20,048 nt of DNA from a virus. The DNA is taken from positions 1 through 20,048 of the IMG/VR virus record IMGVR_UViG_3300035180_000103; one strand, given 5' to 3'. Position 1 is the first letter of the stretch; each line of letters begins with the position of its first letter. The position numbers and the translations under genes were made by a program. The notes beneath the pieces are model-generated. The model did no database searches. It saw only the letters and a list, made by a program, of their open reading frames with translations, and was not told the origin of the DNA. This document shows, piece by piece, positions 2,683 to 17,336 of the stretch.

Positions 2683-2890
2683 GAAGAAAAGTCTCCTGTA
2701 CTACATCTATTGTGCTCTGGGAGAAAAGTCTGGTAAGAATAATAAAGAGGCGGACAAAATTTCTTTGATCCGTCTTTTGGCATTTCTGTCTATTTTTATA
2801 ACTAACTGCTTTATTGTTTTTAATGCAGTCAGGACACATATTGTTCCAGCAGAACCAAGACCAGTAAAGTGCATCATTGCAAGTAAATAA
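2672..2890 (+). CDS. Small membrane protein with basic N-terminus, 72 aa
   Basis: The ATG lies inside the previous gene. A basic N-terminus (MKNRKK) and a polar GEKSGKNNKEAD stretch precede one strong membrane helix at about residues 32-53 (SLIRLLAFLSIFITNCFIVF). A short tail ends IIASK. I associate this layout with small membrane proteins in cyanophages. The last codons and the stop (2876-2890) lie inside the 45-bp direct repeat that recurs at 5430-5474. The 3' end of this gene therefore appears to have been copied to the far side of the restriction-modification cassette. Function unknown. Confidence 0.75.
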   Translation: MKNRKKSLLYYIYCALGEKSGKNNKEADKISLIRLLAFLSIFITNCFIVFNAVRTHIVPAEPRPVKCIIASK

Positions 2891-2920
2891 AGTTAGGATT
2901 GTCCAAAGTGTTTCTATAGT
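2876..2920 (+). repeat. Left direct repeat flanking the RM-like cassette
   Basis: This 45-bp sequence starts ATTGCAAGTAAATAAAG and continues through the 33-bp element. It matches 5430-5474 at 43 of 45 positions, with differences at 2900 and 2912. It brackets the nuclease and split-methyltransferase genes. The upstream 12 bp belong to the end of the 2672-2890 coding sequence, which points to duplication during insertion or recombination. Confidence 0.8.
2888..2920 (+). promoter_or_regulatory. 33-bp promoter-like element, copy 1 (before the putative nuclease)
   Basis: The shared core reads TAAAGTTAGGATNGTCC followed by AAAGTGTNNCTATAGT. This copy has T in place of C at 2900 (GGATTG) and TTTCTATAGT at its end. 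After TATAGT it diverges from the other copies (ATACAATTAATT), with the nuclease ATG 20 nt downstream. TATAGT (2915-2920) resembles a sigma70 -10, but there is no canonical -35. TTAGGA-n3-TCCAAA (2894-2908) is a near-palindrome that could bind a dimeric regulator. Confidence 0.7.
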
Positions 2921-2939
2921 ATACAATTAATTTTTTGTT

Positions 2940-4064
2940 ATGGGAGCAGGTTGCACTAAAGATCATTTCATTCAGGATGCTGCTGAAGCGTACATTGTGT
3001 ACCTTCTACAAGCATATGCTGTTGAGAATAAAGTTGCTATCAGTGATGATGTGGCAGAGAAACACAATACTTTCATTGAGTATTGTGAAGATCGGGATAT
3101 TCTTGATGAGTTTAACAAGAGTATCTACAAGAAAAATATTGATGTTGTAATTGATAAGTTCATCTTGGATCTTCTTTCCAAATATCCCAATCGTAAGTTT
3201 GATTTTGTAGACGTTGAGCGTGAGTTTAGGGACAAGAAACTGAAGGGGGATTTCATTATCCGATTTGAGGATGGTTCTTTCATTTCTTTCTCTCTCAAGA
3301 ACTACAAGAAAGGATTTAATCGCATTCAGTTGTGTTCTGGAACCTGGCACTCATTCCTAAACAATTTCTTGTTTGAATCTGCTGGTGTGGGTACTTTCTT
3401 TGATCCTTTCACTCAAGAAGTATTTCAAGGATGTAATCGTGAGTATCGTGATAGTTTGATTGAGAAACTTGGTTATGATGCTCTCAAGGAAGTTTACACA
3501 TTTTTTGATACTATAAATGATACTATCAAAAAGTTTTATACCTATGGTGAACAAGCACGTTACTGGAAAAATGTATCTGCTCAATGGAAAGGTGATTGTG
3601 CTGCCTATGGATTGAAAGCAGCAGAGAAGATTATATCTGCTCTTGATTCTATCCCTAAAGATATGGTCAAGAATCGCATTATTAAGATGGCAGGTCTTAA
3701 CTATGATGAAGAGATTCTGCTTGTTGGTAATGGTAAGTATCTCTGTTCTTTGTTTAATCAAAAATATGCACAAATCCTGGAGCGCGTCAACTCTGTTGAA
3801 TCTGTGGTAGAATATACCACAAATGGAAAAGGTTTGTTGTTCACTTTGTGTGACTCTGTGGGAGTGATTGTAAATATTGAAGTTCCTTTTACTTTGCAAA
3901 AAAATGGTGCTTGGCACTTACCCAAAACAAAATATGTTGGTACTCAATATCACAATAAAGAAGGTGTTGCTCTAATTCACGGTGAACGTCGTCCAAAGAA
4001 ATCGAAGGAGATTTCAACTTCAATAAATACATTTTTGAACCTAAAGAAATCAGGAGTTTGTTAA
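2940..4064 (+). CDS. Putative PD-(D/E)XK-like restriction endonuclease, 374 aa
   Basis: I see no close named family, but a nuclease-like core is visible. DVEREFRDKKLKGDFIIRF is followed by DGSFISFSLKNYKKG, giving D104, a 13-residue beta-hairpin stretch, then S118-L-K120. This fits the D-x(n)-(E/S/Q)-x-K form of the PD-(D/E)XK fold seen in some type II enzymes; upstream Glu residues (E93, E95) could supply another acidic ligand. Length and position fit a type II restriction subunit: the stop overlaps the methyltransferase start by one base (TAATG), with AGGAG at 4052-4056. It is driven from the 33-bp element at 2888. Calling it a restriction enzyme rests on fold pattern plus neighbours. A nicking enzyme or anti-competitor nuclease is equally possible. 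Confidence 0.6.
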   Translation: MGAGCTKDHFIQDAAEAYIVYLLQAYAVENKVAISDDVAEKHNTFIEYCEDRDILDEFNKSIYKKNIDVVIDKFILDLLSKYPNRKFDFVDVEREFRDKKLKGDFIIRFEDGSFISFSLKNYKKGFNRIQLCSGTWHSFLNNFLFESAGVGTFFDPFTQEVFQGCNREYRDSLIEKLGYDALKEVYTFFDTINDTIKKFYTYGEQARYWKNVSAQWKGDCAAYGLKAAEKIISALDSIPKDMVKNRIIKMAGLNYDEEILLVGNGKYLCSLFNQKYAQILERVNSVESVVEYTTNGKGLLFTLCDSVGVIVNIEVPFTLQKNGAWHLPKTKYVGTQYHNKEGVALIHGERRPKKSKEISTSINTFLNLKKSGVC

Positions 4065-4957
4065 TGCAATTTGACGTAGTAGCAACTAATCCACCATTTC
4101 AGGATTATACAAATAAAAAGAAAACACAACATAAATTATGGATTGATTTTACTCGTCGTGCATTTGACAAGTGGTTAAAACCTGAAGGAATACTTCTTCA
4201 GGTTTCTCCTAGCAGTTTTCTGTCTCCGTCAAGTAAAATTCTTAAGTTGATGCAAGAAAAAGATGTAAAGTATTTGCGATTAGATACCAAGAAGTATTTT
4301 TCTAAAGTTGGAAGTACATTTGCAGATTATCTAATATATAATCGACCAAAATCAAAAAAAACAGAAATTATTACTGATAAAGGTACGTTTGAGCAAACAA
4401 TTGATTCTACACTATTTTATCTACCTGCTGATGTAAGTGAGGAATCCCTAAACATTCATAGAAAAATAATCTTTAGTGTCATTGACAAAATGAATGTAAA
4501 ATATGATTATGTAACCTGTCACAATGTACTGATTCATCGTAATGATACTATTAGTAAGATAAAAACAGAAGATCATATTTATCCAATTTTTCATACTAAT
4601 GCCCAAGTTTGGTACTCTAAAATTCGCCAAGACTGGGGCAATAGAAAAAAAGTAATGTGGTCTCGTAGTGGATATACTAAACCATTCTATGATAATGGTG
4701 TTTATGGTGGTACAGACATGATATACTATGTACTGGTTGATGATGATATTAGTGGGAAGAATCTTGAAAATAATCTCAACACTAAATTAATGAAATATCT
4801 GTTCAAGACTGCCAAGTGGTCAGGATTTGGTAACGAAAAAGTATTCTGTGCCTTACCAAATCTCCCTATTGATTATGCAATGTCGGATTTACAAATGTAT
4901 GAGTTGTTTAATTTAACTAAAGAGGAGCAATCTTATGTCGAAAATTATATGGGATAA
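4064..4957 (+). CDS. Split N6-adenine methyltransferase, motif IV/target-recognition subunit, 297 aa
   Basis: The start is the ATG at 4064, 7 nt after AGGAG and overlapping the nuclease stop; a TTG at 4058 is in frame but less likely. The protein opens directly with MQFDVVATNPPF, so motif IV (NPPF, residues 9-12) is at the very N-terminus. There is no upstream room for motifs X, I, II or III. The sequence after it (DFTRRAFDKWLKPEGILLQVSPSSFL) matches motifs V-VI of Eco57I/HsdM-like gamma-class enzymes. The remaining 200 residues would hold motif VIII and the target-recognition region. It cannot bind SAM by itself. The missing half is the next gene, which overlaps it by 23 nt, so co-translated subunits probably form one active methyltransferase. 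Confidence 0.82.
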   Translation: MQFDVVATNPPFQDYTNKKKTQHKLWIDFTRRAFDKWLKPEGILLQVSPSSFLSPSSKILKLMQEKDVKYLRLDTKKYFSKVGSTFADYLIYNRPKSKKTEIITDKGTFEQTIDSTLFYLPADVSEESLNIHRKIIFSVIDKMNVKYDYVTCHNVLIHRNDTISKIKTEDHIYPIFHTNAQVWYSKIRQDWGNRKKVMWSRSGYTKPFYDNGVYGGTDMIYYVLVDDDISGKNLENNLNTKLMKYLFKTAKWSGFGNEKVFCALPNLPIDYAMSDLQMYELFNLTKEEQSYVENYMG

Positions 4958-5393
4958 GATTAAAGATTATATGGATGATCACTCATATATGGGAGAGATT
5001 GATCGTGATGAATATCGTATCAAAGAAACCGCAGAAATTTTTACTCCCACTGATCTGGTAATTGATATGCTACAGAAAACTGATCTTGATTGCTTTTTAC
5101 CTGGTAAAACAGTTCTTGATCCTGCTTGCGGAGATGGACAATTCCTTTGTGCTATCAAATGGATCAAAATCCTAATACATAAAATGACTGAATTTGATGC
5201 ACTACAAGACATTTATGGTGTTGATATTATGCGTGATAATGTAGATCTCTGCAAAAAAAGATTGGGTGGTGGTACAATTTTAATGGGAGACTCCTTGTGC
5301 CCAGGAAAAGAATTCATAGAACAAACTGAAGAAGAACATAAACAAATGAGGATTCTTTTTTTTGCAAATGGTTTGGAAAAACTTCTTATATGA
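4935..5393 (+). CDS. Split N6-adenine methyltransferase, SAM-binding subunit (motifs X, I-III), 152 aa
   Basis: The ATG at 4935 follows AGAGGAG by 6 nt, one of the best ribosome-binding sites in the window. AEIFTPTDLVIDML (residues 34-46) is motif X. TVLDPACGDGQFL (59-71) is motif I, the SAM-binding loop. YGVDIMRDNVDLCKKRL (94-110) is motif II and MGDSL (117-121) sits at motif III. The protein then stops about 30 residues later, without any NPPY/F catalytic motif, which is encoded by the preceding gene. The C-terminal 15 residues follow a run of eight T at about 5355-5362. A shift there would give other short endings, so the exact terminus is uncertain. Downstream lies the right copy of the 45-bp repeat. 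Confidence 0.82.
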   Translation: MSKIIWDKIKDYMDDHSYMGEIDRDEYRIKETAEIFTPTDLVIDMLQKTDLDCFLPGKTVLDPACGDGQFLCAIKWIKILIHKMTEFDALQDIYGVDIMRDNVDLCKKRLGGGTILMGDSLCPGKEFIEQTEEEHKQMRILFFANGLEKLLI

Positions 5394-5429: not shown

Positions 5430-5474
5430 ATTGCAAGTAAATAAAGTTAGGATCGTCCAAAGTGTCTCTATAGT
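5430..5474 (+). repeat. Right direct repeat flanking the RM-like cassette
   Basis: This is the partner of 2876-2920 (43 of 45 identical). Here the ATTGCAAGTAAATAA part is not the end of a clear gene, as it is on the left, but leftover sequence after the methyltransferase stop. That is what a duplicated insertion seam would leave. Confidence 0.8.
5442..5474 (+). promoter_or_regulatory. 33-bp promoter-like element, copy 2
   Basis: This is a consensus copy ending TCTCTATAGT, followed by GTAAGCACCAAACCAAAG and the ATG at 5494. GTAAGCACC differs by only two bases from the ATGAGCACC found after other copies, so here no start codon is created at that place. Confidence 0.72.
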
Positions 5475-5493
5475 GTAAGCACCAAACCAAAGA

Positions 5494-6156: not shown

Positions 6157-6789
6157 ATGAAGACGTTCTCCGAATTTATGTCTATTTGTGAAGCATATGA
6201 TGCAGACTTTATGTCTGGAGCACAAATCCGTAAAACGGGGGCTGATGGAAGAATTGGTCCCGAACGTAAGAAAACTCCTGCTGAAAGACGTAGAGTAAGG
6301 TCAATTGGTGGTGGTAAAACTGAACCAGTTGAGTATAAACCCAGAAAAGATATTGGTTCTCAACGTCAGTCATCTGCAAGAGTACAAGCACCAGAACAAG
6401 AACGTGGAAGTGCTGATGTAAAGGCAAAAGCAGCAGAAGCAGCAAAAGCAGAAAGAATAGCAGCAGCAAGAAAAAGAGCAGCAGCAAAAAGTGGTGGAGA
6501 AACATCTAGTAGTGCAAAACCAAAAGCAAAAGAAATAGCAAAGACTGCATCAAAACTCCTCTCTAAAAAGAAAGCAACAAAACCAGTTTCTCCTGATTAC
6601 AAACCAGCAAAACCATCAGGATTGTCTCAGAAAGAAAGAAATATTCAAAGTAAAGCAGGTGAAAGAACGTTACTTGGTATCATGAAGCAACAAGAACTAT
6701 CAAAATATGAAAAAGAAACAGGACAGAAAGCAACTGGAAAAGCAAAAACCATAGCACTTGGAAGAGCAGCAGCAAGAATGTCCCAGTGA
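6157..6789 (+). CDS. Basic Ala/Lys/Arg-rich protein with capsid-targeting-like N-terminus; putative internal head protein, 210 aa
   Basis: The N-terminus MKTFSEFMSICEA closely resembles the capsid-targeting sequence of T4 internal proteins (MKTYQEF...). I-C-E followed by Ala (residues 10-13) fits the (I/L)-x-E cleavage rule of the T4 prohead protease gp21. The rest is highly basic and low-complexity: KKTPAERRRVRSIGGGKTEP, then a long Ala/Lys run around residues 85-120, as expected of a DNA-associated protein packed into the head. A TATAAATA late promoter lies 28 nt upstream. Together these support a virion internal protein that is cleaved on maturation. Family knowledge supplies the targeting rule; its application here is inference. 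Confidence 0.75.
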   Translation: MKTFSEFMSICEAYDADFMSGAQIRKTGADGRIGPERKKTPAERRRVRSIGGGKTEPVEYKPRKDIGSQRQSSARVQAPEQERGSADVKAKAAEAAKAERIAAARKRAAAKSGGETSSSAKPKAKEIAKTASKLLSKKKATKPVSPDYKPAKPSGLSQKERNIQSKAGERTLLGIMKQQELSKYEKETGQKATGKAKTIALGRAAARMSQ

Positions 6790-6790
6790 T

Positions 6791-6823
6791 TAAAGTTAGG
6801 ATCGTCTAAAGTGTCTCTATGGT
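6791..6823 (+). promoter_or_regulatory. 33-bp promoter-like element, copy 3
   Basis: This copy carries two deviations: GTCTAAA for GTCCAAA, and TATGGT for TATAGT at 6818-6823. The gene's first ATG (6824) follows with no gap; a second in-frame ATG is at 6839. Confidence 0.68.
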
Positions 6824-7069
6824 ATGAGCACCAAACAAATGTCCTTCACTATCACCGACCAACCTGTAATCATTAACGGCACTGAACATCAAGTCACTGC
6901 TGTGAATGGTATGGACCGAGTTCTAATCAACAACAAACTGCATGATCTTGGAGAGCAAATCCTGAAACTGCGTATGCAGCAAGATGAACTTGCACAGATG
7001 CGTAATGTTCTTGATCATCACATCAAATCCAAAGAAGAAGATTTGTTTGAGATGTTTTATGCTTCCTGA
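6824..7069 (+). CDS. Hypothetical protein with C-terminal coiled coil, 81 aa (76 aa if started at 6839)
   Basis: Reading from the ATG fused to the element gives MSTKQMSFTITDQPVIINGT. The second Met (6839) gives MSFTITDQPV. If TATGGT is a -10, transcription would begin inside the first codons and only the second Met would be usable. The N-terminal half looks beta-rich. Residues 37-75 (NKLHDLGEQILKLRMQQDEL onward) form a heptad-like coiled coil, consistent with an oligomeric regulator. No catalytic motif is seen. Function unknown. Confidence 0.78.
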   Translation: MSTKQMSFTITDQPVIINGTEHQVTAVNGMDRVLINNKLHDLGEQILKLRMQQDELAQMRNVLDHHIKSKEEDLFEMFYAS

Positions 7070-7108: not shown

Positions 7109-7306
7109 ATGGAAACTGTGAACGTGTCTGTAAGTACTCTGGAAACTCTTATTGAGGGTCTTGAGAGTGCAATCAAAGTGTGCTATAATGTAGACTACCA
7201 ATCAGACGATCACGAAAAGTCTGCACCTTATGCAACAGGATATAGTCGTGCTGCGATGCGAATGATTAGTGATCAACTCAAAACTCTGAAAGTACAGGGG
7301 TATTAA
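7109..7306 (+). CDS. Conserved cyanophage-type small protein, 65 aa
   Basis: The sequence METVNVSVSTLETLIEGLES with AIKVCYNVDYQSDDHEKSAP and YATGYSRAAM matches a pattern I associate with short cyanophage proteins. It is mostly helical and soluble. Its stop codon TAA (7304-7306) is supplied by the first bases of the next 33-bp element. It lies 39 nt after the preceding gene, with no promoter of its own visible, and so is probably co-transcribed from 6791. Function unknown. Confidence 0.8.
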   Translation: METVNVSVSTLETLIEGLESAIKVCYNVDYQSDDHEKSAPYATGYSRAAMRMISDQLKTLKVQGY

Positions 7307-7336
7307 AGTTAGGATCGTCCAAATTGTCCTTATAGT
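7304..7336 (+). promoter_or_regulatory. 33-bp promoter-like element, copy 4 (before the helicase)
   Basis: This copy has AAATTGTCCTTATAGT (the consensus has AAAGTG). TATAGT at 7331-7336 is immediately followed by ATGAGCACAACC; the helicase could start at that ATG or at the in-frame ATG at 7352. Confidence 0.7.
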
Positions 7337-8590
7337 ATGAGCACAACCTTGATGAATACGCAAATCAAACTTCGTCCTCACCAAATTCGTGGTGTTGATG
7401 CTATGTCCAAGCACAACAAAGGTCAACTTATAAAACCAACTGGAGCAGGAAAAACTCTTACTATGATTGCTGATGCACTCAAAGAGTTTGCTAAAGAAAC
7501 TCCACAGACCGTTGTTGTTGTTGCTCCTAGAATACTTTTGAGCGAGCAGTTGTCCAGTGAGTTTTTGGAGTTTATCACAACTGTTGCTGTGTTACATGTG
7601 CATAGTGGAGAGACAACTCACTTCAGCACTACCAAACCTGCCGAGATCTACAACTGGTCTCGTCGTGCATACAAGCATCAACTGATCTTCACTACCTATA
7701 ACTCTCTCCAACGTCTTGTTGATGCAGAGATTGATGTGGATACGATATATTTCGACGAAGCACATAATTCCGTCAAACGTAACTTCTTTCCTGCAACGGA
7801 GCACTTCTCTGCAAATGCAAATCGTTGCTACTTTTTCACTGCAACTCGCAAGACTTCTGTGACTGTGGGTAAACCAGGAATGAACGATGTTGATGTTTAT
7901 GGTAACATCATCTGCCGCGTTTCTGCACCAGAACTTGTTGATGGTGGGTATATTGTTCCGCCTAAAGTTTATGCTCACAAGTCTAAAACTGCTGATGAAT
8001 GTGGTGGTTGCTCTTATGAACGGGACAAGCACAATCTCATCGACATTATCAACACCTATGGAATGGATAAAGTATTGGTCGTATCCAAAAAGACCAAGGA
8101 TATTATAGGTCTCACTACTCAAACTGATTTCCAACTCCAAATGGAAGAAATGGGATATGAAGTTCTTCATATCTCCAGCAAGTTTGGTGCCTTCATTAAC
8201 AACCAGAAAGTTGATCGTGAGGTATTTTTTGATACGCTCAATGCTTATGGTAAGGATGTGAGCAAGAAGTTTGTTGTATTGCATTTCGATATTCTTGCGG
8301 AAGGACTGAACATCTCCTGCCTGAATGGTGTAGTCTTTCAGCGTAGCACAGACTATATCAAAATCCTGCAAACTGTTGGTCGTGCTGTTCGTCTTGATCC
8401 ACGCGACAGTAAGGGTATTCGTGAAGGTGCAATCACTCCTGGTGCTGTGAATACCTACAGCAAGAAGTTTGGTCTTGTTGTTACACCAGTTTTTGATAAA
8501 GTTGGAGTAAGCACTGCGACCAAGATTAACAACTGTTTAGATACAGTTTTTACTCACGGAGAACTGCTGGATAGCGTCACTCGCAAATGA
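7337..8590 (+). CDS. SF2 DEAH-type helicase / ATP-dependent translocase, 417 aa
   Basis: The SF2 motifs appear in order. LRPHQ is a Q-motif-like start (residues 12-16), and PTGAGKT (34-40) is the Walker A loop. APRILLSEQ (63-71) is motif Ia-like. FDEAHN (139-144) is the Walker B/DEAH box, FTATRK (167-172) is motif III, and QTVGRAVRLD (345-354) is motif VI with its arginine finger. This is the compact two-RecA-domain core also found in type I/III restriction R subunits and in T4 UvsW-like branch-migration helicases. No nuclease domain is attached. Likely roles are replication fork or recombination remodelling. The start is either the ATG fused to the promoter element (7337) or Met6 (7352); no motif is affected. 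Confidence 0.9.
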   Translation: MSTTLMNTQIKLRPHQIRGVDAMSKHNKGQLIKPTGAGKTLTMIADALKEFAKETPQTVVVVAPRILLSEQLSSEFLEFITTVAVLHVHSGETTHFSTTKPAEIYNWSRRAYKHQLIFTTYNSLQRLVDAEIDVDTIYFDEAHNSVKRNFFPATEHFSANANRCYFFTATRKTSVTVGKPGMNDVDVYGNIICRVSAPELVDGGYIVPPKVYAHKSKTADECGGCSYERDKHNLIDIINTYGMDKVLVVSKKTKDIIGLTTQTDFQLQMEEMGYEVLHISSKFGAFINNQKVDREVFFDTLNAYGKDVSKKFVVLHFDILAEGLNISCLNGVVFQRSTDYIKILQTVGRAVRLDPRDSKGIREGAITPGAVNTYSKKFGLVVTPVFDKVGVSTATKINNCLDTVFTHGELLDSVTRK

Positions 8591-8717: not shown

Positions 8718-8746
8718 TTGACATCACCACTCAAAGTTGTTAAACT
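8718..8746 (+). promoter_or_regulatory. Canonical sigma70 promoter for the 8814 gene
   Basis: TTGACA (8718-8723), a 17-bp spacer and TAAACT (8741-8746). The lead-in GGTGCTTGACAT is identical to the one at the 16076 promoter. The predicted leader is about 60 nt. The rest of the 223-bp gap (8591-8813) holds no gene I can support. Confidence 0.75.
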
Positions 8747-8813
8747 TACATCATCAGTTGAGAACTTCTGTTCGCACCAACTGATACAAAGCAAACTTGC
8801 TATTTTTTTAATC

Positions 8814-9815
8814 ATGACTCAAATTGTTCCCTTTTTCCAATCCAACGTAACTTCTTGGGATGCTCTGCTGAGTAATCCTACATTCAAATCTCTTGACATT
8901 CCTTCCTTTGATTGCTCCGAATTTGTAGGTGTTAAAGTGAAAGAATGGTCTAACCTTAATATTCAACAAGCAGCAAATAAAGCACGAGCAGGTGGTGTTG
9001 ATACCAACAACATCAATGGTCTAATTACAGAATTTCAAAAAGGTTATCGTGTAACTGAATTGCCTCCTATTGTAATGATTCTTCCTAATGGTACGGAAGA
9101 AACTTGGGATGGATACAATCGATCCAATGCTTGCTATGAACTTGGGATTCAAGATTACCCATTTCTTGTCTATCGACTGAAAGAAGAATGGGCAGATCGT
9201 ATCGAGGATGCTTATGATCTTGTTTCTCTTGGTGCAAACAATCATACGGTAGCAAAGCGTCACACCATCAACGATTTTATTCTTCGTGGTGTGTGCTACT
9301 GTAAGCGTCAAGGTAATTCTCTCTCCAAAACACAAATTTCTAACTGGGTTGGTAGCATCAATCATTCATTCACTGCAAAACAAGTGAGTGACATTGTGGA
9401 TAAGATTTATCAGCAAACCACAATCGCTGTTAATATTCTTCCTTTTATTCATCCCAAGAGCGCACAGTCAAAAGTTGCAGAGATTGTAGATACTAGTTCC
9501 TCTACTAATCCGATTGTGATTTGCTGCAAAGATGTAATGTATATTAAACGTGGTTTTATTAAAATCATGGAAAACTTTGTCGAAAACGACATTGATGTTA
9601 CTGATGTTGTGACTTACACCAAAGGGTGTGAAACTGCCGAAGAAGTGACTGCACAACGTCAATCTGGAGTCAACTATCTCAAGAAACTTGATGATCTTGC
9701 CGTTCAGTATGTTGTCAAGCGTATGAGCAGTCAATCTTCATCTTACTCTATTGCTGGTGCTCTGCCCCAGTTGATTGGTGTTGAAGATCCCCAATCTTTG
9801 GTTGAGATTAACTAA
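8814..9815 (+). CDS. ParB/Srx-fold-like DNA-binding protein, 333 aa
   Basis: The frame is open further upstream from a TTG at 8718, but that codon is the -35 of a promoter, so I place the start at the ATG at 8814 (MTQIVPFFQSN). GYRVTELPPIVMILPNG (residues 77-93) and WDGYNRSNACYELG (98-111) form the signature of the ParB/sulfiredoxin fold: a strand, then a D-G-x-x-R phosphate-binding loop and helix. The region at about 146-215 (SLSKTQISNWVGSINHSFTA and around) has helix-turn-helix character. Family members bind DNA and CTP/ATP in partition, or act as nucleases or regulators. Which applies is not visible. The stop overlaps the next start (TAATG). Confidence 0.75.
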   Translation: MTQIVPFFQSNVTSWDALLSNPTFKSLDIPSFDCSEFVGVKVKEWSNLNIQQAANKARAGGVDTNNINGLITEFQKGYRVTELPPIVMILPNGTEETWDGYNRSNACYELGIQDYPFLVYRLKEEWADRIEDAYDLVSLGANNHTVAKRHTINDFILRGVCYCKRQGNSLSKTQISNWVGSINHSFTAKQVSDIVDKIYQQTTIAVNILPFIHPKSAQSKVAEIVDTSSSTNPIVICCKDVMYIKRGFIKIMENFVENDIDVTDVVTYTKGCETAEEVTAQRQSGVNYLKKLDDLAVQYVVKRMSSQSSSYSIAGALPQLIGVEDPQSLVEIN

Positions 9816-9985
9816 TGAAAGGATTTATTGTTGGAGAATATGCTGCCGTACCTTTTGTGAACGGGTATATCATCATTCACAACGGACAACAACTTGAGAA
9901 ACTTTGTAGGACTGAAAGTTCTGCAAAGAAGTATATTGCCGACCACAAGAAGAGTTTAACTCAAGGACAACTTCCAATCAATTAA
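9815..9985 (+). CDS. Hypothetical protein, 56 aa
   Basis: The start shares a base with the previous stop (TAATG), implying coupled translation with the ParB-like gene. The sequence MKGFIVGEYAAVPFVNGYII then a basic helix (SSAKKYIADHKKSLTQ) suggests a small beta-hairpin plus helix. The stop TAA is the first three bases of the next 33-bp element, as for the 7109 gene. Function unknown. Confidence 0.74.
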   Translation: MKGFIVGEYAAVPFVNGYIIIHNGQQLEKLCRTESSAKKYIADHKKSLTQGQLPIN

Positions 9986-10015
9986 AGTTAGGATCGTCCA
10001 AAGTGTCCTTATAGT
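9983..10015 (+). promoter_or_regulatory. 33-bp promoter-like element, copy 5
   Basis: A consensus copy ending CCTTATAGT, with ATGAGCATCC following directly. This is the only copy whose gene has no second nearby in-frame ATG, so the start codon must be the one touching the element. Confidence 0.72.
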
Positions 10016-10885
10016 ATGAGCATCCAAAACAAGCACCAAGAACATTTTGAGGATCTAATCCTAACAGGTGATCTATCAGTACTAGATTTCTTCAATGGTG
10101 ACTATGAAGTTTCATTGAAAATTGATGGTTCTCCTGCTATTGTATGGGGAACCAATCCTGTGAGTGGTAACTTCTTCGTGGGCACCAAAAGTGTCTTCAA
10201 TAAAGTTAAACTGAAAATCAACGAAACGCACGAAGATATTGATGCAAACCACATTGGGAATGTAGCACAAATCCTACACTGCTGCTTGGATAGTCTTCCT
10301 CGCACAGAGAACATCTATCAGGGTGATTTCATAGGTTTCGGTGGACTTAATGTCTATACTCCTAACACGATTACCTATCAGTTCCCTGAAGTTGTAACTC
10401 AAAGTATCATCATCGCACCACACACAAAGTGGAGCACTGATGGTGAACTTCGTGATGCTTATGTATCTGGTTCTGCGCCATTTTTCGTTGATACTCAACA
10501 CGTCAAGTTTGTGCAACCTTGTGTGGACTTTGTTCGTGTAAATCTGCTTGATGTGAATGTTGATGACGTTGTGTTTTTGAGTGTAAAGGAAGCAGCAGCA
10601 GCAAAAGTAAAAATCAATGCTCTTATTCGTGAGGGAAAGGAGTTGACTTGGTGGGCACTTGGAGACATTTTTGGTTGTATGAACCTTGCACATTTGTATC
10701 TTACGATGATTGAGATTAAGGAAGACTTGATGCAGTCAATGATCGTCAGTGATAGTCCAGTAGCATACATCAACGGAGAAAAGATTGTTGGTGAGGGTTT
10801 TGTCCTCAAGAATAGTAGCATCATTATGAAGTTGGTGAATCGTGAAGTTTTCAGCAAAGCAAATTTCAACCTGCAAAGATCCTGA
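10016..10885 (+). CDS. Ligase-superfamily-like nucleotidyltransferase, 289 aa
   Basis: The motifs of the ATP-grasp-free ligase/capping superfamily can be traced. SLKIDGSPAIV (33-43) carries the KxDG nucleophile K35. YQGDFIGFG (101-109) sits at motif III/IIIa. GEGFVLKN (259-266) is motif IV and IMKLVN (270-275) carries the motif V lysine K272. I associate it with an uncharacterised phage family (HFEDLIL start, KIDGSPAI, FFVGTKS, YQGDF), which I believe is DUF6267. Expected chemistry is transfer of AMP to a lysine and then to a nucleic-acid end; no separate OB or ligase C-domain is seen. RNA or DNA end repair, such as countering tRNA cleavage, is one possibility. Substrate unknown. Confidence 0.78.
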   Translation: MSIQNKHQEHFEDLILTGDLSVLDFFNGDYEVSLKIDGSPAIVWGTNPVSGNFFVGTKSVFNKVKLKINETHEDIDANHIGNVAQILHCCLDSLPRTENIYQGDFIGFGGLNVYTPNTITYQFPEVVTQSIIIAPHTKWSTDGELRDAYVSGSAPFFVDTQHVKFVQPCVDFVRVNLLDVNVDDVVFLSVKEAAAAKVKINALIREGKELTWWALGDIFGCMNLAHLYLTMIEIKEDLMQSMIVSDSPVAYINGEKIVGEGFVLKNSSIIMKLVNREVFSKANFNLQRS

Positions 10886-10888
10886 TAT

Positions 10889-10921
10889 TAAAGTTAGGAT
10901 CGTCCAAAGTGTCCCTATAGT
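10889..10921 (+). promoter_or_regulatory. 33-bp promoter-like element, copy 6
   Basis: A full consensus copy with TCCCTATAGT. It is followed at once by ATGAGCACAACC; a second in-frame ATG lies at 10937. Confidence 0.72.
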
Positions 10922-11353
10922 ATGAGCACAACCACTATGCAACTCCAAGCACAACAAACCATTGCAGATATCGTTCTCAAGAATACTCATCTGCTGATTG
11001 AAGCACTCAAAGATAACTTTCGTGAGTATTCTATTCGTGGTCATCAACGTTCTGTTGATCGTGGTGAAAGTGTAGAGCATCATCAGCAGAGGATTGATGA
11101 ACTCAAGAATGGTATTCTGCCGATTGATTATGTGATTGAAAGTGGTAAAAAGTATCACAAAGTTGTTATGGTTGATGCTGGAAGTTCTAGGTCTGTTCAT
11201 GCTTTTGTGGACAAGAATACTGGAGAATTGTATAAGTCTGCATCGTGGAAATCGCCTGCTAAAGGTGTTCGTTATGACCTGCGATTGATTGCTGATCGTG
11301 AGTATCTGCTGAAAAATGCAGATTGGTCGGGTGGGTATTTGTACGCAAAATGA
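10922..11353 (+). CDS. Conserved cyanophage-type protein, 143 aa
   Basis: The first residues MSTTTM are encoded by bases also seen after other promoter copies, so the true start may be Met6 (10937). The C-terminal part, YHKVVMVDAGSSRSVHAFVD then KSASWKSPAKGVRYDLRL, is a pattern I associate with many cyanophage genomes. The middle (RSVDRGESVEHHQQRIDEL) is helical and charged. It is soluble, with no catalytic motif I can name. The stop overlaps the next start as ATGA. Function unknown. Confidence 0.8.
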   Translation: MSTTTMQLQAQQTIADIVLKNTHLLIEALKDNFREYSIRGHQRSVDRGESVEHHQQRIDELKNGILPIDYVIESGKKYHKVVMVDAGSSRSVHAFVDKNTGELYKSASWKSPAKGVRYDLRLIADREYLLKNADWSGGYLYAK

Positions 11354-11756: not shown

Positions 11757-12170
11757 ATGAAACATCTACTCACTCTTTCACTCCTACTTCCATTTGTATT
11801 TGTTGCACCAACTCAAGCACAGCAAGTGAATGTTTATGGTGAAAGTTATTGTTATACTAACATAGAGCAATACGTTCCTGGGTATTATGATGCTTATGGA
11901 AACTATGTGGGTGGTTATGTAAATAATACTCGCAATCGTGTTCCTTGTGGTAATAATGTAGTGGTAAATCAACAACCTTACTATAACAATGGTGGAGGTT
12001 ATTATGGTCGTCGCACTAACCCTAACTGTAATCCATCTCGAACTATATTAGGAGCAGTACTTGGTGGTGCGATTGGTAGATCTATGACTAGCACTCGCAA
12101 TAATCGCAATAATCGTGGATGGGCAACTGCACTTGGTGCAAGTATAGGTGGGCTCGCATTTTCTTGTTAA
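11757..12170 (+). CDS. Exported glycine-zipper protein, 137 aa
   Basis: A clear Sec signal peptide (MKHLLTLSLLLPFVFVAPTQ) ends with a TQA|QQ cleavage site after residue 21. The mature part has a Tyr/Asn/Gly-rich, repeat-like region (YVPGYYDAYGNYVGGYVNNT). Two glycine-zipper helices follow: LGAVLGGAIGRS (about residues 97-108), and TALGASIGGLAF near the end, with a final Cys. Such proteins insert into or associate with the outer membrane or envelope of Gram-negative cells. In a phage this suggests an envelope-acting function such as superinfection exclusion, lysis aid or surface change; this is inference. Four Cys (two near residues 32 and 64) could form disulfides. Confidence 0.8.
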   Translation: MKHLLTLSLLLPFVFVAPTQAQQVNVYGESYCYTNIEQYVPGYYDAYGNYVGGYVNNTRNRVPCGNNVVVNQQPYYNNGGGYYGRRTNPNCNPSRTILGAVLGGAIGRSMTSTRNNRNNRGWATALGASIGGLAFSC

Positions 12171-12203
12171 TAAAGTTAGGATCGTCCAAAGTGTCCTTAT
12201 AGT
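12171..12203 (+). promoter_or_regulatory. 33-bp promoter-like element, copy 7
   Basis: A consensus copy with CCTTATAGT, followed by GTAGAGACCAATCAAACC and the ATG at 12224. The downstream arm TAGAGAC pairs only partly with GTCCTTA here (one mismatch, one wobble). Confidence 0.72.
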
Positions 12204-12223
12204 GTAGAGACCAATCAAACCAA

Positions 12224-13416: not shown

Positions 13417-13556
13417 AATACATCGTTGAACTCTATGTCGGTGGAAAAGTATTCACCGAAACTGTACAAGCAAACAACCCACAAGATGCACGTTACACAG
13501 CACAAAATCGAAATCCTACAGCAAAAGTAATTGGAGTGAATGTAAGTTTCAAGTAA
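13413..13556 (+). CDS. Hypothetical protein, 47 aa
   Basis: It overlaps the previous stop (ATGA). The product MKYIVELYVGGKVFTETVQA then NPQDARYTAQNRNPTAKVIG fits a beta-alpha-beta mini-fold of the kind seen in many short phage proteins. Its last codons (VNVSFK and stop) fall in a segment repeated verbatim at 14059-14078, after the gene at 13854, where it is not translated in this frame. This indicates copying through the adjacent 33-bp element. Confidence 0.72.
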   Translation: MKYIVELYVGGKVFTETVQANNPQDARYTAQNRNPTAKVIGVNVSFK

Positions 13557-13590
13557 TTAAAGTTAGGATCGTCCAAAGTGTCCCTATAGT
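13538..13590 (+). repeat. Extended 53-bp repeat, first copy (pair with 14059-14111)
   Basis: GAATGTAAGTTTCAAGTAAT precedes the 33-bp element here and at 14059; 51 of 53 positions agree. In this copy the extra bases are the coding end of the 47-aa gene. Confidence 0.82.
13558..13590 (+). promoter_or_regulatory. 33-bp promoter-like element, copy 8
   Basis: A full consensus copy with TCCCTATAGT, directly followed by ATGAGCACAACCCAAATG, which offers two in-frame starts (13591 and 13606). Confidence 0.72.
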
Positions 13591-13854
13591 ATGAGCACAA
13601 CCCAAATGATCGACTTTCCCACACTTCAATCCAAAGATGGTACAATGTTAGTTGGTTTCTATCCTATTGCGGATTGTTCTGATCATACTCTCAAGGTTCT
13701 ATCTTGGAAAGGAGTTAATACCATCTCCCGAAAGTGTATCAGCAAAAAAGATGCAATCCGTGAGGTAAATGATCGTCTTGCACTTGATTATGTGATCACT
13801 GGTGATAATGTTGATTCAGTGCAAGATTATAATCCAATGCAAGGTGCTGTTTGA
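13591..13854 (+). CDS. Hypothetical protein, 87 aa (82 aa if started at 13606)
   Basis: MSTTQMIDFPTLQSKDGTML: the first five residues are encoded by the promoter-like sequence, so Met6 is a serious alternative start. The product has a beta-rich first part with one Cys pair region (ADCSDHTLKV, RKCISKKDAI), then an alpha/beta end. It is soluble. The stop overlaps the next start (TGATG). Function unknown. Confidence 0.75.
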   Translation: MSTTQMIDFPTLQSKDGTMLVGFYPIADCSDHTLKVLSWKGVNTISRKCISKKDAIREVNDRLALDYVITGDNVDSVQDYNPMQGAV

Positions 13855-14066: not shown

Positions 14067-14111
14067 GTTTCAAGTAATTAAAGTTAGGATCGCCCAAAGT
14101 GTTCCTATAGT
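14059..14111 (+). repeat. Extended 53-bp repeat, second copy
   Basis: This matches 13538-13590 at 51 of 53 positions, including 19 bp upstream of the 33-bp element. Here those bases begin in the final codon of the 13854 gene and run past its stop. Confidence 0.82.
14079..14111 (+). promoter_or_regulatory. 33-bp promoter-like element, copy 9
   Basis: This copy has CGCCC for CGTCC and GTTCCTATAGT, followed by GTAGAGACCAATCAACCC and the ATG at 14138. Confidence 0.7.
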
Positions 14112-14137
14112 GTAGAGACCAATCAACCCAACTTAAA

Positions 14138-14564: not shown

Positions 14565-14726
14565 ATGATCACAACTTCTTTCTACAAAGGCAACTCTTAC
14601 TCAAAATTTGATGCTTATTATGAAGATCACGAACATGATGATAATCTAACAGCAGAAGATTATGATCGCAAAGCATATCAACGTGATGGATGGGAAGATG
14701 TAAAGTATGACCGACAATATTGGTGA
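14565..14726 (+). CDS. Small acidic, Tyr-rich protein, 53 aa
   Basis: The start is preceded by TTAAACAAA. The product MITTSFYKGNSYSKFDAYYE continues DHEHDDNLTAEDYDRKAYQR, with many Asp, Glu and Tyr and a possible metal-binding HEHDD cluster. The stop lies 3 nt before the next 33-bp element. Function unknown. Confidence 0.68.
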   Translation: MITTSFYKGNSYSKFDAYYEDHEHDDNLTAEDYDRKAYQRDGWEDVKYDRQYW

Positions 14727-14729
14727 TAT

Positions 14730-14762
14730 TAAAGTTAGGATCGTCCAAAGTGTCTCTATAGT
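14730..14762 (+). promoter_or_regulatory. 33-bp promoter-like element, copy 10
   Basis: A full consensus copy with TCTCTATAGT, followed by GTAAGCACCAAACC (as after copy 2) and the ATG at 14785. Confidence 0.72.
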
Positions 14763-14784
14763 GTAAGCACCAAACCAAAACCAA

Positions 14785-16653: not shown

Positions 16654-16718
16654 TACAATCTCTTACGTATTAAAGTTAGGATCGTCCAAAGTGTCTCTAT
16701 AGTGTAGAGACCAATCAA
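16654..16718 (+). repeat. Extended 65-bp repeat, first copy (pair with 17261-17325)
   Basis: TACAATCTCTTACGTAT, the 33-bp element and 15 bp downstream are identical in both copies. This copy lacks the ACGTAAG left arm found before the 17261 copy. Confidence 0.85.
16671..16703 (+). promoter_or_regulatory. 33-bp promoter-like element, copy 11
   Basis: A full consensus copy. Its 3' part forms a perfect 7-bp dyad with the following bases: GTCTCTA (16693-16699) and TAGAGAC (16705-16711). Confidence 0.74.
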
Positions 16719-16724
16719 ACCAAG

Positions 16725-16979
16725 ATGACCGCCACCTTCCAATCTAATGCTCTTGATATCTCCTATAACGGTTGGGAGAACTATGAGACCTGGAATGTAT
16801 CTCTCTGGATCAACAATGATGAGGGTCTGTATCTCCTTGCTGCAGAGTGTGGTGATTATGAAACCTTTGTAGATTGTCTCTACAATGAGTATGGAGTAAA
16901 GGAAACAAAGGACGGAGTTAAGTTTGCCGACCCCAAAGTTAACGTGGTTCAGATTAACTCTGACGTGTTCGATTTCTAA
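16725..16979 (+). CDS. Conserved phage protein of the 'NYETWNV-LWINND' type, 84 aa
   Basis: NGWENYETWNVSLWINNDEG is the hallmark of a widespread short phage and bacterial protein family of unknown function. Here it is preceded by an unrelated short N-terminus (MTATFQSNALDISY) and followed by an acidic alpha/beta part ending VVQINSDVFDF. No enzyme motif is seen. The ATG is 22 nt after TATAGT, with AAACCAAG before it. It is alone in its module; the stop lies 6 nt before the next element. Confidence 0.82.
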   Translation: MTATFQSNALDISYNGWENYETWNVSLWINNDEGLYLLAAECGDYETFVDCLYNEYGVKETKDGVKFADPKVNVVQINSDVFDF

Positions 16980-16984
16980 GGTAT

Positions 16985-17017
16985 TAAAGTTAGGATCGTC
17001 CAAAGTGTCCCTATAGT
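16985..17017 (+). promoter_or_regulatory. 33-bp promoter-like element, copy 12
   Basis: This copy has GTCCCTA (17007-17013) paired with TAGGGAC (17019-17025). The C and G changes relative to copy 11 compensate each other, so the dyad is kept. Confidence 0.74.
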
Positions 17018-17050
17018 GTAGGGACCAATCAACCCCACTTATTTGTGATC

Positions 17051-17260: not shown

Positions 17261-17325
17261 TACAATCTCTTACGTATTAAAGTTAGGATCGTCCAAAGTG
17301 TCTCTATAGTGTAGAGACCAATCAA
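17261..17325 (+). repeat. Extended 65-bp repeat, second copy
   Basis: Identical to 16654-16718. Here ACGTAAG (17253-17259) pairs with CTTACGT (17269-17275) inside the repeat, forming a hairpin whose left arm is missing from the first copy. This suggests that 17261 is the older copy. Confidence 0.85.
17278..17310 (+). promoter_or_regulatory. 33-bp promoter-like element, copy 13
   Basis: A full consensus copy with the perfect GTCTCTA (17300-17306) / TAGAGAC (17312-17318) dyad. The start codon of the next gene is at 17337. Confidence 0.74.
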
Positions 17326-17336
17326 CCTCAAATCTT

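Follow-up and report, generated by a model that had tools for sequence, protein, structure and literature searches.

Two overlapping phage genes encode complementary halves of a putative N6-adenine DNA methyltransferase

The gamma-class N6-adenine DNA methyltransferases (MTases), such as M.TaqI, M.BseCI, CamA and the Eco57I-type enzymes, are normally single chains, in which the conserved motifs follow the order X-I-III-IV-VIII and the target-recognition domain (TRD) comes last. Among the C5-MTases, M.AquI and M.EcoHK31I are naturally split into two polypeptides; the break of M.AquI is located in the variable region, and the small chain of M.EcoHK31I holds motif IX only (PMC3404938). Permutation also exists in nature, as the C5-MTases of the M.BssHII group demonstrate (PMC5944983). 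Here, we describe two overlapping genes, M2 and M1, of a marine bacteriophage in the virus record IMGVR_UViG_3300035180_000103 of IMG/VR (positions 1 to 20,048; this whole stretch of 20,048 nucleotides is called the window). The pair shares with the gamma-class enzymes the EIFTP of motif X, the DPACGDG of motif I, NPPF, the Eco57I and N6_Mtase profiles and the folds matched in the PDB, but consists of two chains with the second half encoded first. The split cytosine enzymes M.AquI and M.EcoHK31I are the closest precedents for such MTases, although they are split elsewhere, whereas the window pair is of the adenine type and is divided after motif III and before motif IV, inside the Rossmann core. 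A literature search, with REBASE and most subscription papers outside its range, found no description of such a split for adenine MTases.

The M2 gene starts eight residues before NPPF (protein N-terminus MQFDVVATNPPF; alternative start, a TTG at 4058) and covers what remains of the enzyme, from motif IV onward. The M1 gene overlaps it by 23 nt in a different frame of the same plus strand, encodes motifs X, I and II and the GDSL of motif III, and then stops, so that neither gene holds a complete motif set. The sequence-only reading of this DNA had described an adenine MTase divided between motifs III and IV, with the gene order inverted; the open reading frames (ORFs) and motif positions confirm this, with the break exactly there, and its coordinates, motif calls and overlap were all correct. 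The single-chain order X-I-III-IV-VIII-TRD is not found in the window, where the gene for IV-TRD comes first on its own chain, and the one-chain order IV-VIII-TRD-X-I-III is found only outside it, in seven fused relatives among the matches listed. The marks of the gamma class, namely F-T-P in motif X, DPxxGxG in motif I and NPP[YF], all occur across the pair and are invariant in its relatives.

Profile searches of both halves agree with this division. The M2 protein aligns solely with a late stretch of the Pfam Eco57I methylase family (PF07669; 1.5e-6, positions 73-149 of 171), and M1 solely with an early stretch of N6_Mtase (PF02384; 1.9e-4, positions 23-94 of 311). On the PADLOC profile PDLC03273 (MTase_II, 432 aa), which represents a single-chain Type II MTase in the normal order, unlike the window pair, M1 and then M2 cover consecutive parts, M1 weakly at 22-87 (E 0.0067) and M2 at 130-400 (1.9e-18). 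Across the family, this profile is matched by 14 of 15 M2 and 7 of 19 M1 proteins. In the PDB, the M1 family profile matches residues 11-99 of M.BseCI (2.6e-7), and a search of NCBIfam gave only sub-threshold matches to Alw26I-type and MADS MTases. The gamma-class look noticed earlier is thus borne out, since the profile, PDB sequence and fold matches all point to the gamma type and none to kinship with beta-class enzymes. By these comparisons, the term beta-class fits the motif order only (IV-TRD-X-I-III, as in the fused relatives of the window pair), not the sequence relationship, and the window sequences are gamma-type on separate chains.

Loci with M1 were searched for in phage records, in IMG/VR and in a set with one genome per species, and 87 non-redundant phage loci among the matches listed form the sample for the counts of locus classes; their classes were assigned by pattern matching, with a few doubtful rows (e.g., L108, L126 and L144). 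At 67 of the 87 loci, a gene bearing motif IV lies just upstream of M1, and the suggestion that such a split layout is rare does not hold. Among the 67 split loci, 26 M2 proteins begin at motif IV and 25 have an N-terminal extension with no recognisable GxG. The remaining loci are fused (7), reversed (1, L137), lacking an adjacent partner (5) or cut by a contig end (7). Isolates with M1 loci include Klebsiella PKO111, Shigella PSD9, Vibrio phi-ST2 and Aeromonas Ah1, as well as the cyanophages Prochlorococcus P-SSM2, Synechococcus S-CAM7 and S-SKS1. The current annotation of most phage genes of this pair reads hypothetical protein or names a DNA methyltransferase standing alone.

Several of these loci have unusual partners. 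In the reversed pair (L137, 2812-3992), M1 is followed by a short gene bearing motif IV. In L126 (664-3909), the X-I domain lies inside a 1081-aa protein that has no motif IV of its own and no clear MTase partner. Three M2 proteins from T4-like phages of Klebsiella, Vibrio and Aeromonas (L054 1521-3008, L057 1340-2998 and L055 1321-2958) carry a fused N-terminal LEM-3-like GIY-YIG or T5orf172 domain, the T5orf172 match of L055 being slightly below the cut-off. Elsewhere (L114 3-3017; also L113, L125 and L139), proteins of about 1000 aa have a stretch ahead of M2 that looks helicase-like by eye, with no Pfam match, and M1 comes next.

The seven fused proteins all have the same order as the window genes. 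One of them (L052) is a single 436-aa ORF of the window's own family, with NPPF at residue 9 and motifs X-I-II-III within the last 140 residues; its M2 part shares 55% identity with the window M2, and the ORF sits directly after a homologue of the nuclease candidate described below. The other six, from the Aeromonas phages Aeh1, PX29, phiAS5, 65, ZPAH1 and CC2, are fusions of 383-417 aa with the order IV-TRD-X-I-III. Every motif occurs once in all seven, and their only SAM motifs (SAM, S-adenosylmethionine) are those of M1. An AlphaFold2 model of the single-chain L052 protein, built from a mixed alignment of fused proteins and halves, reached a pLDDT of 74.8 overall and a pTM of 0.72; the pLDDT was 92-98 for the greater part of X-I and 92 for the first ten residues, including NPPF. 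This model has 48 matches in the PDB at E <= 0.001, all of them adenine MTases and the best mostly gamma-type (CamA, 4e-7; BrxX/PglX, M.BseCI, M.TaqI and a Vibrio MTase). The matches support the predicted family and fold, short of proof of an assembled sheet.

In bacteria, 50 loci have the order M1 then M2. The motif I of M1 is intact in 48 of them and NPPx is present in none, its place being mostly taken by I-x-F-[SAP]-E-W. In nearly all 50, M2 has NPPY, and DPxxK[ST]G replaces its motif I (Lys for the first Gly). Judged by motifs, each bacterial operon therefore keeps a single intact motif for SAM and another for catalysis, the two being on separate chains, and these operons are the strongest independent support for a predicted composite active site. 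They resemble the window in that a small SAM-motif subunit, related to the window M1, stands beside an NPPY subunit of the Eco57I type. They differ in their longer M1 and M2, in the order M1-M2, and in a third gene, R, which comes after the pair and encodes the nuclease, a GIY-YIG/helicase protein with T5orf172/MUG113 and ResIII domains; the window has instead the nuclease candidate followed by M2 and M1. Curtobacterium plasmid D40 (L243 6001-7357) carries a window-type M2 (47.5% identity) plus M1, annotated as hypothetical protein and N-6 DNA methylase; a Dam-type methylase is encoded close by, and the nuclease candidate is missing.

Taken as a whole, these observations are best explained if M1 and M2 are two subunits of one N6-adenine DNA MTase, to which we assign a probability of about 0.8. 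The sequences show the structure of the genes, their complementary motifs and their conservation, as well as truncations that recur at one boundary and fusions in nature; the assembly, activity and restriction role are inferred. In the proposed mechanism, M1 would contribute beta-strands 1-3 and the SAM pocket (motifs X-III), and M2 would contribute the catalytic NPPF (motif IV), the remaining sheet and the TRD. The two translationally coupled chains would pack side by side to form one gamma-type catalytic domain, and the assembled enzyme would methylate a specific site. The 374-aa protein encoded upstream would most likely be the matching nuclease, in which case the phage would carry a small restriction-modification cassette. 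A natural split MTase cut in the SAM/catalytic core would be useful for conditional or targeted methylation. A wider version of this proposal is more tentative: a widespread two-subunit class of N6-adenine MTases (SAM-binding M1; catalysis and recognition by M2), with repeated loss of the M2 half and later permuted fusions, in which a clamp tail on phage M1 may tie methylation to replication and the window cassette may bring in a new nuclease family.

If M1 works in trans, the SAM half of M2 would be free to decay, and in the window lineage it is gone. The N-terminal half of M2 looks intact, degenerate or absent depending on the lineage. In a tree of the X-I domain, the M1 of phages and of bacteria shares one group with the fused forms, and the cis X-I halves of M2 lie elsewhere, with one long-branch exception; the Aeh1-type fusions cluster with the split Ah1, phi-ST2, PKO111 and PSD9 at a support of 99. 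The tree built on the part of M2 that begins with motif IV requires four switches from one form to the other, extended or truncated, of which well-supported branches force at least three. Both trees came from quick searches and have many weak branches. The X-I half of M2 was thus lost at least three times, each time with M1 as a neighbouring gene or as a fusion partner, in a sample that was gathered through M1. On the simplest reading, M1 would be an old stand-alone subunit, M2 would have shed a redundant N-terminal half on several occasions, with the cut at one and the same boundary, and later fusion would have produced the beta-like order. A recent duplication within the locus was rejected as the source of M1, since the cis X-I halves of M2 cluster apart from it.

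The sequence-only reading had proposed another route, in which a single chain was circularly permuted into a beta-like order and split afterwards. The gene order of the window equals the fused order, and fused forms are present in the same family, which speaks for this route. However, M1 groups alone with stand-alone bacterial members of the opposite order (M1 before M2), the fused forms are few (7 of 87) and scattered, and many M2 proteins retain a remnant N-terminal X-I half, which is unexpected from a permuted ancestor. The tree grouping of M1 and the repeated losses of the M2 half make circular permutation plus fission probably wrong, and we consider it rather unlikely, while the arguments from the X-I tree are limited by weakly supported deep branches and the lack of a root. 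The data favour an old two-subunit enzyme with a trimmed M2, of which the fused, beta-like permuted forms look derived. Gene duplication followed by truncation is the model of Jeltsch (1999) for permuted DNA MTases, as cited in PMC5944983. The route suggested here resembles it, with M1 standing in for the second copy, and is unlike permutation followed by fission. The four states in one family (M2 intact with M1, degenerate with M1, truncated with M1, and fused-permuted) offer a bench-testable series for permutation.

Several results weigh against a two-subunit enzyme with its own nuclease. At 16 of the 67 split loci, M2 keeps its own motif-I-like GxG, and there M1 may be an accessory instead of the sole SAM site. 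The M2 profile search of the PDB gave no significant sequence match. The sequential fold alignments of the L052 model are poor (TM 0.2-0.34), as either a permuted chain or a doubtful model would produce. For the 374-aa protein, the fold search of its model in the PDB found nothing significant (E >= 0.14; ACE1, HinP1I and MspI weak), and it is taken as a probable nuclease from the pattern of its motifs, its linkage and these weak fold matches. The first of these points leads to another explanation, in which M1 would act as a cofactor loader, an allosteric activator or a clamp tether, an accessory and no structural half, and M2 would bind SAM otherwise. The near-intact motif I of some M2 proteins encoded beside M1 (LDPCMGTGT in L140 and FDPSMGSGQ in L041) and the clamp-like tail of many M1 proteins speak for it. 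In the window family, however, M2 begins at motif IV and leaves no room for a SAM pocket, and the single-chain fusions hold only the SAM motifs of M1, which makes an accessory M1 improbable.

The two genes are also conserved as separate ORFs. Relatives of M1 with 51-99% identity occur at 45 IMG/VR loci, and a gene bearing motif IV directly precedes M1 wherever the upstream sequence suffices, a recurrence far beyond chance. A direct DNA search for near phage relatives of the window gave no match. Neither did tblastn of M2 in phage records, and the M2 relatives were therefore drawn from IMG/VR and from the neighbours of M1. The 30 aligned M2-M1 pairs contain no stops and have median dN/dS values of 0.15 (M2) and 0.20 (M1); NPP of M2 as well as E34xFTP, DPACGDGQFL and D97 of M1 are invariant. 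Both genes are intact and under purifying selection. The distances of M1 and M2 over these pairs correlate at 0.88, which shared ancestry alone would also yield. Half of a normal enzyme is missing from M2, as in a decaying and inactive MTase, but the intact ORFs, low dN/dS and invariant catalytic motifs, together with the recurrence of the pair in T4-like phages of Klebsiella, Shigella, Aeromonas, Vibrio and cyanobacteria, make decay very unlikely, and a pseudogene was rejected on the same alignment. Reading of the overlapping frames as one protein by ribosomal frameshifting was rejected as scarcely credible, because M1 has its own Shine-Dalgarno sequence and start, the junction in relatives varies from overlaps of differing length to gaps of 27-126 nt, and some loci (L137, bacteria) have the reversed gene order. 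Thus, none of the three outcomes that would have spoken against the split was found: frameshifting, decay of one half, or a SAM half of the window M2 itself.

The nuclease candidate has the invariant residues E16 and D104 and a conserved S118xK120-type pattern (22 relatives), which suggest a nuclease of the PD-(D/E)XK type, and its AlphaFold2 model has a pLDDT of 92 and a pTM of 0.84. In the window family, its homologues lie upstream of M2, at times with a 375-aa gene between. A Geodermatophilus contig carries a homologue (2e-82) convergent to adjacent M2-M1, and two cyanophages carry one without adjoining M2-M1. By motif pattern and linkage, this protein is probably the cognate nuclease of M1-M2, and with them it looks like a phage restriction-modification cassette. 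The window has 13 intergenic copies of an element TAAAGTTAGGATCGTCCAAAGTGTCTCTATAGT, which is probably a shared phage promoter; they lie at 2877-2939, 5431-5493, 6780-6842, 7293-7355, 9972-10034, 10878-10940, 12160-12222, 13547-13609, 14068-14130, 14719-14781, 16660-16722, 16974-17036 and 17267-17329. Since one copy lies directly before the nuclease candidate and the next comes after M1, the three genes look like one operon.

Table 1. Positions of the M2-M1 genes, their motifs and the flanking features in the window.
Feature	Position	Strand	Description
Promoter-like element copy TAAAGTTAGGATTGTCCAAAGTGTTTCTATAGT	2877-2925	+	Immediately upstream of the three-gene cassette; repeat search and sequence check
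Probable PD-(D/E)XK-type restriction endonuclease	2940-4064	+	374 aa; stop overlaps M2 start by one base (TAATG)
M2 Shine-Dalgarno AGGAG	4052-4056	+	Sequence
M2 gene	4064-4957	+	297 aa; motif IV-VIII and target-recognition part of an N6-adenine MTase, without motif I; Pfam Eco57I, PHROG 3689, PADLOC PDLC03273
Motif IV NPPF (M2 residues 9-12)	4088-4099	+	NPP unchanged in 30/30 relatives
M1 Shine-Dalgarno AGAGGAG	4921-4927	+	Within M2 coding sequence; purine-rich stretch there in most relatives
M1 gene	4935-5393	+	152 aa; motifs X, I, II and III, predicted SAM-binding half; Pfam N6_Mtase, PHROG 21201, PADLOC MTase_II
Motif X EIFTP (M1; full stretch AEIFTP)	5034-5048	+	E34, F36, T37 and P38 invariant
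Motif I DPACGDGQFL (M1)	5118-5147	+	Invariant, 30 relatives
Motif II YGVDIM (M1)	5214-5231	+	Y94, G95, D97 and M99 invariant
Motif III GDSL (M1)	5286-5297	+	G118 and L121 invariant
M1 C-terminal tail NGLEKLLI	5367-5390	+	Weak form of a sliding-clamp-binding-like tail; family tails, enrichment versus background, gp43 tails
Next promoter-like element copy	5431-5475	+	After M1, bounds the cassette downstream; repeat search

Two other kinds of genes are found both in the window and in some relatives. ParB-nuclease-like proteins of 365-375 aa (our own reading, with no Pfam match) are encoded in the window (8718-9815) and in L009 (3019-4137), L010 (3006-4127), L019 (3010-4137) and L026 (1398-2525), and in several relatives they stand exactly between the nuclease candidate and M2. 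An SF2 helicase (ResIII, PHROG 16) is encoded at 7337-8590 of the window, in L009 (517-1779) and in L010 (173-1360), and in some relatives the nuclease candidate comes directly after it.

The M2-M1 pair of Klebsiella PKO111 and of Shigella PSD9 is located between the primase gene 61 and the dCTPase gene (56), where T4 has dam, and this location fits a role in DNA methylation. T4 Dam is an alpha-class enzyme; it shares the genome position of the PKO111 pair but is one chain of a different Pfam family. Phage M1 often ends in residues similar to the tail by which T4-type DNA polymerase binds the clamp, as in Shigella PSD9 (NSLLDIFDF, against SSLLDMFDF of the PKO111 polymerase) and L038 (NTLESFF, against SLESFFT of the ACG-2014f polymerase). 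A loose pattern of this tail was found in 38 of 86 phage M1, compared with 69 of 601 other ORF ends and 2 of 73 bacterial M1, and a strict pattern in 19 of 86, 17 of 601 and 0 of 73, respectively; the pattern was defined after the tails were seen, which flatters the p-values. The window M1 fits the loose pattern only. In T4, gp43, gp55 and gp33 have interchangeable C-terminal clamp-binding motifs in common (PMC2988020). Should the M1 tail bind the clamp, the marking of phage DNA would go along with its copying. At 1-534, the window also encodes the C-terminal part of a Dam-type methylase, which was rejected as another half-enzyme because it is only truncated where the contig ends; it terminates in NVLETLLY, which is like the clamp-like tails of M1.

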